From positions 4,030,001 to 4,094,000 of the forward strand of contig NZ_CP110136.1 of assembly GCF_025979705.1 (NCBI RefSeq): DNA of 64,000 bases, read 5' to 3'. Each line of letters opens with the position of its first letter. Positions within the stretch are counted from its first letter, which is position 1. Below the pieces are notes generated by a model. The model was given only the letters and a program-made list of their open reading frames with translations, ran no database searches and had not been told where the DNA came from. Of this stretch, positions 41,968 to 51,857 are shown in pieces. The DNA is from Hymenobacter sp. YIM 151858-1. GTDB lineage: Bacteria; Bacteroidota; Bacteroidia; Cytophagales; Hymenobacteraceae. The position numbers and the translations under genes are program-made.

Positions 41968-42120
41968 GAGGAGCAGGGAATAAGTGCGTTAAAACGAATA
42001 GTAACTCAATGATACTCGCAGCCGCGCCAAAGTTGCAAAGCCGCTCTTGGTGCTTCGCAAACCAATACCCACCTAGGGTTGGCAATTGCCGCTTACCTTA
42101 GGCAATCAACCACAACGCTC

Positions 42121-42645
42121 ATGAGCTCATCCGTACCTGCCGCGCCTGCCCCGCTTACCGATACGCCTCAGCTGGCTGCATTCCGGCGCCGGCTGCTCAG
42201 CCCCGTTAAGCAGCGCTTGTTTATGCTCTCGCAGCTGCCCGCGGCGGGCTTTGCGGGCGTGCGCGTCGAGCGCATTACGCTGGAGTCGGCGGCGGTGTCG
42301 GTGCCGTTTACCTACTTCACCAAAAACCCCTTCCGGAGCGTTTATTTCGCTTGCCTGAGCATGGCCGCCGAAATGGCCTCGGGCGTGCTGGCCATGATGC
42401 ACACCACCAGCGGCACGCCCGTGTCGATGCTGGTGGTGGGCATGGAGGCCGAGTTCCACAAAAAAGCCACCACGCGCATCGTGTTCGAGTCGGCGGATGG
42501 GGCGGCCATTGCCCAGGCCGTGGCCGAAAGCCGCGCCACCGGCGAAGGCCGCACCGTGGTGGCCACCAGCACCGGCCGCGATGCCGCCGGCGACGTGGTG
42601 GCCGTTTTCCGGATTACGTGGTCGTTTCGGGCCAAAAAGCGCTGA
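42121..42645 (+). CDS. Hotdog-fold protein, thioesterase-like (DUF4442-like)
   Basis: 174 residues from ATG 42121 (MSSSVPAAPAPLTD). The pattern RVERITLESAAVSVPFTYFTKNPFRSVYFACLSMAAEMASGVLAMMH followed by SMLVVGMEAEFHKKATTRIVFE fits a single hotdog domain of the DUF4442/PaaI group. Members are often acyl-CoA thioesterases or structural relatives. TACCTTAG about 18 nt upstream is a near -7 match. Confidence 0.8.
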   Translation: MSSSVPAAPAPLTDTPQLAAFRRRLLSPVKQRLFMLSQLPAAGFAGVRVERITLESAAVSVPFTYFTKNPFRSVYFACLSMAAEMASGVLAMMHTTSGTPVSMLVVGMEAEFHKKATTRIVFESADGAAIAQAVAESRATGEGRTVVATSTGRDAAGDVVAVFRITWSFRAKKR

Positions 42646-42781: not shown

Positions 42782-42817
42782 AAAAAAGCCCCTTACCGCA
42801 GCGGTAAAGGGCTTTTT
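42782..42817. terminator. Bidirectional terminator
   Basis: AAAAAGCCCCTTACCGC pairs with GCGGTAAAGGGCTTTTT around a single A loop base, with one C-A mismatch. It separates the convergent hotdog and DAC genes. Confidence 0.88.
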
Positions 42818-42839
42818 AGTTAATATTCAGAAAGTTAAA

Positions 42840-44381
42840 TCAATGCCGTTCGGGCAGGTTGTCCTGGGTGAGTATATCCACCAGGCCGTCTTCGCTTACC
42901 ACTATGGCCATGCAGGGGTAAGGGCTGCTCTCCACGTAGCGCAGGGCCGAGTTGTAGCGGGCGCCCCGCGTGCTGGAGCCGCGCCCCGAAGCCTTGCCGT
43001 CGAGGATAACGCCGATGGAGTAGCAGTACGCTTCGGGGTCGATGAGCACGGCCCCGTCGATGGCCGTTACCAGGCGCGTGATAAGCGGCGTGAGCGGCAC
43101 CGGCTCGATGAGCGTGCACTGCAGCTTCAGGCGGTCGGCCTCGGCTAAGGCCTCGGTGGTAATTACGACCAGCGTGCCCGATTGCTGCCGGCTGGCTTCA
43201 ACCAGCACGTCCCACAGGCGCTCCACTTTGGCGGGGTCGGTAAGGCCGAAAGTCTGGCGCAGGCCCTGCCGAAACTCCGAGCGGCTGAGGCGGGTTTGCG
43301 GCAAGCTCGGCTGGCCGTACGAGGAGCGCATAATTACCTGCCCGCCGTGCCGGAACTCCCACACGTAATGGTGCAGAAAGCTGATAACGAACAGGTCTTC
43401 GCGGCTGCTGTCGTAGTTGCCTACCTGCCGACCTAGGGCGTACACGTTTTCGCCGTCGGAGAGCAGGCTCACGTCGTTGCTCGTCATCTGCAGCAGCTTG
43501 CGCACGGCCCGGTAGTCGGAGAGGGGCGTGGGGCAGGTGAGGGCAAAAATCTCCTGCACGTTGGGGTGGCCGCGGCGCGCCAGCAGCACCTGGCCCACGC
43601 CCGCCGTGCCCTCGTAGCGCAACGACGATACCGTGTTCAGGGTGTTGAAGAGCTTGGCCGCGGCGGGGTCCATGCCCAGGGCCTGGGCGGGCGTATCCAT
43701 CAGCAATTTGCCGGCCGAGCGTACCACCTCGTCGGTGTCGCGGGGGCGCAGCAGCAGGCCAGAGCCGGGGTCGGGCTCCGTCAGCGACTTAATGCATTCT
43801 TCGTGGAAACGCCGCACGGCCGCCTCAATCAGCGACGAAGCCAAGGGGCGCCCGTCGGTGTAAAAGCGGTTGGGCTGCAACGCCGGGTGCGCCTTCAAAA
43901 ACTTGCGCCGCACGCGCAGAATCGTAACGACGAAAAACTCCCCGATCAGCACGGGCCAGCCGGCAAACGAGCGCAGCGCCGAGCTTTTCTTTTCGAGCTC
44001 ATCGAGCACCTCCTGCACGGCCAGGCGCAGGCCCATGCCCTCGAAGCGCCGCGTCATCATTTCGGTGGTGTAGCCTTCTACCAGCGGCATGGTGGCCTCC
44101 TTGGCGCGGCGCAGGTATTGGCCGCGCGTCATTACCTCGGCAAAGGCTTCGGAAGGCAGGCCGCATTGCTCGGGCTCCAGGCACACGGCCGGGCCGCCGT
44201 CGTTGGGGATGCCCAGCAGCATTACTTCGGGGCGCAGGTCCTGGTCGAGGTCGTCGAAGATACCATCGGCCATTACCTGCGCCGCCTGCTGAAAGCGGTG
44301 CTGGTAGGGCCAGATGGTAAATTCTAAAGCAGCCGGCACAATAATGGCCGGCGGCGAAACCACGGTAAGCGGACTAAACAT
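42840..44381 (-). CDS. DAC (DisA_N-fold) nucleotide-cyclase-like protein with sensor-like N-terminus
   Basis: 513 residues. The C-terminal ~75 residues resemble a diadenylate cyclase domain: DGAVLIDP at 442-449, GVILDG, a basic stretch with STRGARYNSA near 470-479, and VVSEDG at 494-499. In classical DAC proteins the second motif is GTRHRAA; here RHR is replaced by RGAR. The middle part (about 230-430) is mixed alpha/beta; the N-terminal ~200 residues may be a ligand sensor of the DACNV kind named by Aravind's group, from memory. No membrane helix. Likely a nucleotide second-messenger enzyme or receptor; no partner operon is adjacent. Confidence 0.72.
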   Translation of the reverse strand: MFSPLTVVSPPAIIVPAALEFTIWPYQHRFQQAAQVMADGIFDDLDQDLRPEVMLLGIPNDGGPAVCLEPEQCGLPSEAFAEVMTRGQYLRRAKEATMPLVEGYTTEMMTRRFEGMGLRLAVQEVLDELEKKSSALRSFAGWPVLIGEFFVVTILRVRRKFLKAHPALQPNRFYTDGRPLASSLIEAAVRRFHEECIKSLTEPDPGSGLLLRPRDTDEVVRSAGKLLMDTPAQALGMDPAAAKLFNTLNTVSSLRYEGTAGVGQVLLARRGHPNVQEIFALTCPTPLSDYRAVRKLLQMTSNDVSLLSDGENVYALGRQVGNYDSSREDLFVISFLHHYVWEFRHGGQVIMRSSYGQPSLPQTRLSRSEFRQGLRQTFGLTDPAKVERLWDVLVEASRQQSGTLVVITTEALAEADRLKLQCTLIEPVPLTPLITRLVTAIDGAVLIDPEAYCYSIGVILDGKASGRGSSTRGARYNSALRYVESSPYPCMAIVVSEDGLVDILTQDNLPERH

Positions 44382-44465: not shown

Positions 44466-45287
44466 CTACAGCTGAAACACAATCGGCAGCACCATCTTTT
44501 GCCGGATGGGCTGGCCTTTGTACTTGGCCGGTTGCCACTTGGGCGCCGTTTTGATGAGCCGGATGGCTTCTTCGTCGCAGCCCGAGCCCAGGCGCTTCAC
44601 GGGCCGGATGTTGCTGAGCGTGCCGTCTTTCTCCACGGTAAACTCCATGGTTACGCGGCCCTCTACCTTGCGCTGGCGGGCCTGGGCGGGGTACTTCAGG
44701 TTTTGCTGCACCCACTCGAAAAACGCATCGGTGCCGCCCACGGGGCGCGCGGGCTCGTCGGGCGAAATGGTTTCGGGGCCGGCGTTGGCCGGCGCGGCGG
44801 CATCGGCGGCTTGCGTGGCCTGCGGCTGCGCCGCCCCGCCCGCTTGGGCCGTGGTGCCCGCGCCGCCCGGAATCTGGAACGTGATGGGTACCGTAACGCG
44901 CTGCCGCACCACCCCGCCGCGGTGCTGGGCGGGTTTCCACCTAGGGCCGGCCTTAATCAGGCGCAGGGCCTCGGCATCGCACTCGGGCGAGAGGCTTTTG
45001 GTAACCTGCCAGCCCGAGGTGTAGCCGGTTTTCTCGACCACAAACGTAACCTCGGTGGTGCCTTGCACGCCCGCTTGCAGCGCGGCGGTGGGGTAGGTGA
45101 GCTTATCGCCCAGGTAGCGGCCGTAGGCCTCGGCGCCGCCCAGGGGCTCGGCGGGCTTTTCGGCGGCGTCGTAGATGTCGGTGGGCGAGGCTTTGGGGTA
45201 TTTCAGCTTTTGCTGGGCCAGGGCCGTGGTGGCGGGTGCGGCACCCAGGCAAACAAGCAGCAAGGCAAGGCGGAGCGTTCGGATCAT
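44466..45287 (-). CDS. Exported protein with two tandem TonB C-terminal domains
   Basis: 273 residues. Signal peptide (residues 1-24) then two copies of the energy-transducer domain: LTYPTAALQAGVQGTTEVTFVVEKTGYTS near 60-90 with PRWKPAQHRG, and LKYPAQARQRKVEGRVTMEFTVEKDGTLS near 190-220 with PKWQPAKYKGQPIR. A Gln/Ala/Thr-rich linker joins them. No proline-rich spacer or TM anchor, so it is not a classical inner-membrane TonB. Perhaps a periplasmic partner of a receptor. Confidence 0.85.
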   Translation of the reverse strand: MIRTLRLALLLVCLGAAPATTALAQQKLKYPKASPTDIYDAAEKPAEPLGGAEAYGRYLGDKLTYPTAALQAGVQGTTEVTFVVEKTGYTSGWQVTKSLSPECDAEALRLIKAGPRWKPAQHRGGVVRQRVTVPITFQIPGGAGTTAQAGGAAQPQATQAADAAAPANAGPETISPDEPARPVGGTDAFFEWVQQNLKYPAQARQRKVEGRVTMEFTVEKDGTLSNIRPVKRLGSGCDEEAIRLIKTAPKWQPAKYKGQPIRQKMVLPIVFQL

Positions 45288-51582: not shown

Positions 51583-51598
51583 CGGCACCTAGGGCAGC

Positions 51599-51857
51599 TT
51601 GTCATGTCGAGCGTGAGCGAGACATCTGGGGTAGGAGTACAACGCCATCCGGTGAGCCTCAATCATTTGGGCGGATGCAACCCCCGAAAGCCGCCCCGTT
51701 GCCCTAGGTGCCGGCGCCATTTGCGGGGCCGACACCTAGGGCAACGCCCACCGAAACGACGCGCATTCATTTCTGGACCAGATGTCTCGCTTTGCTCGAC
51801 ATGGCAGGGGGAGGGCTCGACGTGGCAGGGGTGCTCGACATGACGAGATGCGGCATC
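51599..51857. repeat. Intergenic repeat element with CATGTCGAGC motifs and long palindrome
   Basis: CATGTCGAGC-GTG-AGCGAGACATCTGG at the left is inversely repeated by CCAGATGTCTCGC-TTT-GCTCGACATG near 51779-51803. Two more GCTCGAC(A/G)TG words follow at about 20-bp steps (to 51842). Between the arms a long palindrome carries CGTTGCCCTAGGTG (51697-51710) and CACCTAGGGCAACG (51733-51746). This resembles a dispersed non-coding repeat (MITE- or REP-like). It fills most of the 379-bp gap; no gene is seen. Confidence 0.75.

Follow-up and report, generated by a model that had tools for sequence, protein, structure and literature searches.

The window analysed here, a stretch of 64,000 nucleotides from Hymenobacter sp. 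YIM 151858-1 (contig NZ_CP110136.1, positions 4,030,001 to 4,094,000), carries a gene whose 513-residue product, hereafter denoted copy A, ends in a diadenylate cyclase (DAC) domain preceded by DACNG and DACNH, which Pfam describes as probable sensor domains. Copy A is probably a sensor-gated cyclic-dinucleotide synthase, which is core and duplicated in its lineage and would act without an adjoining cyclic-oligonucleotide-based anti-phage signalling system (CBASS) operon. Support comes from its domains, predicted C-terminal fold, the conservation of the catalytic positions, lineage-wide fixation, synteny, and the failure to detect a SMODS-type CBASS cyclase in the same genome. Judged by predicted fold and catalytic residues, copy A should work like a DAC.

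In the mechanism that we propose, the C-terminal domain probably makes cyclic di-AMP (c-di-AMP) from two ATP molecules once a pair of DAC domains has come together face to face; catalysis would use D442, R475 and S496, with either E497 or D498 of the SED motif as an acidic residue. The likely role of DACNG and DACNH is to detect a ligand or partner and so control the meeting of the DAC domains, and copy A would feed additionally into the cell's signalling through c-di-AMP or a related molecule.

Domain architecture and the altered RHR motif

DACNG, DACNH and DAC follow one another from the N- to the C-terminus, with both DACN domains scoring above their Pfam cut-offs (Table 1). The first-pass annotation, made from the sequence alone, had read the protein as a divergent DAC and had pointed to DACN-type sensor domains predicted in DAC proteins, both of which Pfam bears out; its statement that the N-terminus has no known domain fails, because Pfam assigns DACNG and DACNH there, spanning most of the region. 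The residues it quoted (DGA, 442–444; STRGARYNSA, 470–479; VVSEDG, 494–499) are present as numbered, and likeness to DAC lies above chance in the PF02457 profile search, the score being 38.2 bits, compared with 139.4 bits for the canonical CdaA encoded elsewhere in the same genome. The DAC of copy A is C-terminal behind two sensor domains, and Pfam found no further DisA domain.

The modelled C-terminal part of copy A has a DAC fold. An earlier model (full length, nine close orthologues) was discarded, its mean predicted local distance difference test score being 45.6. A fold search of BFVD gave no match at E ≤ 0.001, and sequence searches of the PDB, with the single protein and with a family profile, gave no DAC match, so solved DAC structures lie beyond the reach of sequence alone.

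Alignment with the genome's own CdaA (L001) places G473-A-R475-Y-N477-S-A over G-L-R-H-R-A-A. This alignment serves for register only, since with a lone sequence on one side the hhalign probability is just 1.06%. It makes R475 the first arginine of RHR, with Y476 standing for the histidine and N477 for the second arginine; the change is from RHR to RYN, and the idea that RGAR replaces RHR was rejected as an error of register. The DGA motif is present in copy A, whilst an intact GxRHRxA is not.

The 34 sequences compared, 28 from the family alignment and six homologues from viral contigs, are without exception identical at D442, G443, I459-L460-D461-G462, G473, R475, N477, S496 and D498. Position 476 varies (Y, F, L or H in the same table), and asparagine occupies the position of the second arginine in 28/28 alignment rows, copy A included, and in 6/6 viral-contig homologues. 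The alignment (A1) comprises 22 of 30 database homologues (with copy A, as P0001, standing for L003, and eight omitted) and six of seven plasmid matches (H6 omitted). At least four of the 34 sequences have no Pfam DACNG match (L045 and the viral L071, L072 and L073; L046 was not scanned). With R475 and N477 invariant across the family alignment and the viral homologues, the altered motif is, on the aligned sequences, a signature of the clade and not a defect of copy A. DisA and CdaA diadenylate cyclases, in contrast, have RHR, and copy A has the invariant ILDG in addition. A further DAC type, with GTRHRAA and VDGA and without the GxR-x-N signature, occurs in two relatives (L104:1462-2841 and L105:1303-1785); the L105 gene seems split between two frames.

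In CdaA of Leptospira, the D172A and R203A (first arginine) variants are reported to abolish activity and S222A to lower it (PMC12974146); the counterparts in copy A are D442, R475 and S496. The first-pass annotation had argued that, as known synthases need the RHR arginines, the protein might make another nucleotide, be a receptor or use a changed mechanism. The essential R203 is kept as R475 and the motif is clade-wide; another nucleotide product is possible, whilst a receptor or dead enzyme appears less likely than an active synthase, because R475 is kept, the asparagine is family-wide (including in a Citrobacter row resembling the defence system DS-2) and the DAC catalytic residues of DS-2 are needed for defence.

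Distribution, duplication and conservation

DACNG was found in 126 of 200 genomes of the family, in three of six genera, and in 4/395 genomes of a draw from the phylum, all four from this family. Within the window's own genus all eight genomes, including that of the window, have two copies; in the window's genome the second (copy B) lies at about 860.7–862.2 kb of contig C1. The sister genus (g5) has DACNG in 120/120 genomes: 116 with two matches, three with three (G590, G602 and G607), and one, from an 81%-complete genome, with a single match. Both genomes of a third genus (g2) among those listed have one copy each; the list leaves out 54 genomes that gave no match, so its coverage of g2 may be incomplete. 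That two copies per genome are A and B was checked for genomes in the tree or identity comparison, rather than for all 120 of g5. The orthologue in Solirubrum puertoriconensis is 97% identical to copy A.

In a 29-protein tree, which includes E. coli L067 (absent from the 34-sequence residue table), copy A (support 94/100) and copy B (100/99) form clades that each hold both the window's genus and g5, and for this reason the pair looks older, from the sequences, than the split of the two genera. The g2 copies join the B side (93/85), and a DUF4112 neighbour is common to them and copy B. The deeper order of the tree is unsure because the plasmid rows have long branches. Copy A itself is flanked by a same-strand TonB_C gene upstream and a convergent DUF4442 gene in 16/16 genomes, the window included; this conserved synteny, with presence throughout the sister genus, led us to reject a mobile defence island gene at this site.

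Across the same ten genomes, mean pairwise identity of the DAC domain (over a 113-residue window set around DGA) is highest in copy A (88.2%), followed by the housekeeping CdaA (83.2%) and copy B (77.3%); for the N-terminal 370 residues it is 63% (A) and 67% (B). The DAC is the most conserved part of copy A, and DACNG the least conserved of its three domains. Slow change in the cyclase domain and faster change in the N-terminus fit an enzyme that retains catalysis whilst its input drifts, and do not fit decay.

Relationship to DS-2 and competing readings

DS-2 is reported as a three-gene anti-phage system of E. coli (phospholipase, CD-NTase and DAC) whose protection is lost when either of two residues predicted to be catalytic in the DAC is mutated; it is described as a CBASS in which two cyclases may be at work, and 15 of 30 homologues adjoined a CBASS (PMC13092281). 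The third protein of DS-2 has DACNG and DACNH ordered as in copy A, and copy A matches the DS2_3 profile (NCBIfam NF053872) over positions 3–487 of 576 with 449.7 bits, below the equivalog cut-off of 630. The E. coli protein L067, annotated as an 'anti-phage protein', has DACNG and DACNH and scores 818.8 bits over positions 1–576, whereas copy A is without the last ~90 profile positions (488–576). At E ≤ 0.001, Pfam lists DAC in copy A but not in the E. coli DS-2 protein. A Citrobacter gene in the family alignment, which has 85% identity to its E. coli DS-2 counterpart, encodes a protein about 31% identical to copy A with which it has D442, G443, ILDG, R475, N477, S496 and D498 in common. Unlike DS-2, copy A has no adjacent patatin or CD-NTase and belongs to a chromosomal core pair. 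Strict membership of DS-2 was rejected on the equivalog cut-off, the C-terminal part and the neighbours.

Of 5426 E. coli genomes, 18 carry a homologue of this Citrobacter gene. Seven plasmid matches were found and the neighbourhoods of six inspected: in Gluconobacter and Citrobacter the homologue adjoins a patatin and a CD-NTase (the Citrobacter pair confirmed by Pfam), in Priestia it lies beside a SMODS gene on one plasmid and restriction-modification genes on another, and in Dyadobacter and Phycisphaera it has no annotated defence neighbour. Among viral contigs there are six homologue loci, and a second profile scan returned the same six contigs; two single-protein scans matched only their own query, and phage records gave no match. 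On one IMG/VR contig the homologue lies beside a Cap15 gene and a SMODS-like nucleotidyltransferase that scores below cut-off. At another locus (L070:7404-9212) a DACNG-DACNH-DAC gene, its DAC at 24.2 bits just under the Pfam cut-off of 27, sits within what appears by eye to be a prophage structural block, with a portal-like frame before it and protease and capsid-like frames after. A viral contig (L071:7155-9752) encodes an 865-residue DACNH-DAC-like homologue with a long C-terminal region containing weak TPR matches.

These associations make it conceivable, though we think it rather unlikely, that copy A is an active cyclase with an immune role: a defence protein like that of DS-2, retained in the core genome as a phage or stress sensor that stands alone and whose effectors are encoded at other loci. 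Its closest characterised homologue is anti-phage, relatives lie beside defence genes on plasmids and a viral contig and, in E. coli, within a defence region, and DACNG is its least conserved domain. Defence genes usually come and go, which counts against this reading, as do the presence of DACNG in every genome of the sister genus, the synteny kept beside genes not named as defence, and the missing DS-2 C-terminal part. The genome has no PF18144 (SMODS) match, although E. coli matched in the same test; other CD-NTase families were not searched, and this is moderate evidence because the model scores some DS-2-like nucleotidyltransferases near or below cut-off. SMODS was found in 10 of 58 relatives; of the 16 DACNG holders only 3 have it, on other contigs. 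PADLOC gave no match for copy A, which weighs little because its 2023 library predates the publication of DS-2.

An active cyclase with a different product is an unlikely reading in our estimate: the RxN motif and the ILDG aspartate, which adjoins the base-binding strand, would shift base choice, and the product would be a dinucleotide that contains GMP or is mixed. Both D461 and N477 are invariant where the genome's own CdaA has proline and arginine, and Leu188, reported to bind adenine in Listeria CdaA (PMC10167629), aligns at L460, next to D461 (with the numbering step inferred). The model, however, was made without nucleotide, and the chemical argument is inferential. A non-catalytic nucleotide receptor with a retained DAC pocket is very improbable; RHR is not intact and the Pfam DAC score is weak beside that of CdaA, but D442, R475 and S496 are invariant and DAC is the most conserved part of copy A. 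In a broader and doubtful proposal, proteins with GxR-x-N and ILDG would form a separate DAC catalytic class, peculiar in its product or its choice of nucleotide, run as a universal duplicated signalling pair by Hymenobacter and its sister genus and borrowed by mobile CBASS loci such as DS-2 as a second cyclase.

Several points weigh against a sensor-gated synthase, which we nonetheless favour. The second arginine of RHR is asparagine and the histidine tyrosine in copy A, and replacement of RHR by AAA is reported to abolish activity of M. tuberculosis DacA (PMC3328451); in the accessible literature we found neither a separate mutation test of the second arginine nor an activity measurement for any family member. 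The closest characterised relative, the third protein of DS-2, serves phage defence as described in the available text. The SMODS model gives the Citrobacter DS-2 nucleotidyltransferase 28.9 bits (cut-off 26.5) and that of L069 21.2, below the cut-off. Support for the copy A clade lies below the star threshold in a tree with long branches, and the DAC domain of copy B is less conserved than that of CdaA, which speaks against treating both copies alike. In the proposed genome search for c-di-AMP phosphodiesterases no PgpH-type hydrolase was found; there are two TrkA_C matches and three DHHA1 matches, including a DHH-DHHA1 protein (L082) that matches NrnA only weakly (83.5 bits, cut-off 350).

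Because the gene pair is a fixed part of the chromosome and copy A has no CBASS operon beside it, this lineage makes product, signal and sensor function separable from immunity for study, which is relevant since the product of the DS-2 DAC is not stated in the available text of the DS-2 paper (PMC13092281). The NCBI name 'anti-phage protein' should not pass to the Hymenobacter copies on homology alone. Our literature search, which left most subscription journals uncovered, found nothing relevant on DACNG, related DACN domains, DisA_N in phage defence or c-di-AMP in Hymenobacter.

Gene neighbourhood and feature coordinates

The gap between the TonB_C and DAC genes is 84 bp in the window and 51–228 bp over the 16 genomes, with DAC start codons chosen by script. 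The gene had been called monocistronic, a claim that is not confirmed given this conserved same-strand neighbour, with which it may be co-transcribed; a strong terminator hairpin stands behind the DAC gene. The terminator scan also picked up this hairpin on the plus strand, and such sites are about as many in shuffles (3 vs 2.1). The scanned neighbours of copy A are the TonB_C and DUF4442 genes, an L-PSP/RidA-type protein and one protein without a Pfam match; none is named as a defence gene.

Table 1. Features of copy A and its surroundings, in window coordinates.
Feature	Position	Strand	Basis
DACNG-DACNH-DAC gene (copy A), 513 aa	42840..44381	-	Open reading frame list, motif positions, Pfam
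DACNG probable sensor domain, residues 23-228	43698..44315	-	PF21752, E 1.5e-66, 224.7 bits (cut-off 27)
DACNH probable sensor domain, residues 243-345	43347..43655	-	PF21750, E 1.4e-28, 99.3 bits (cut-off 27)
DAC (diadenylate cyclase) domain, residues 395-506	42864..43199	-	PF02457, E 1.2e-9, 38.2 bits (curated cut-off 27)
IDGA motif, residues 441-444	43050..43061	-	I441, D442, G443 invariant 34/34; A444 31/34
Family-specific ILDG motif, residues 459-462	42996..43007	-	Invariant 34/34; own CdaA has I-L-P-V
RGARYN motif, residues 472-477, replacing xGxRHR	42951..42968	-	G473, R475, N477 34/34; R472 33/34
SED motif, residues 496-498, where CdaA has S-E-E	42888..42896	-	S496, D498 34/34; E497 32/34
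Terminator hairpin between convergent DAC and DUF4442 genes	42782..42818	.	z -5.8 vs shuffles, minus-strand RNA
TonB_C-domain gene, conserved upstream neighbour	44466..45287	-	PF03544; same strand in 16/16 genomes
DUF4442 gene, conserved convergent downstream neighbour	42079..42645	+	PF14539; opposite strand in 16/16 genomes

Elsewhere in the window, short repeats, both inverted (22-nt arms, 91% complementary) and direct (17-nt copies), cluster between genes at 51583-51851 and may represent a small palindromic repeat element.
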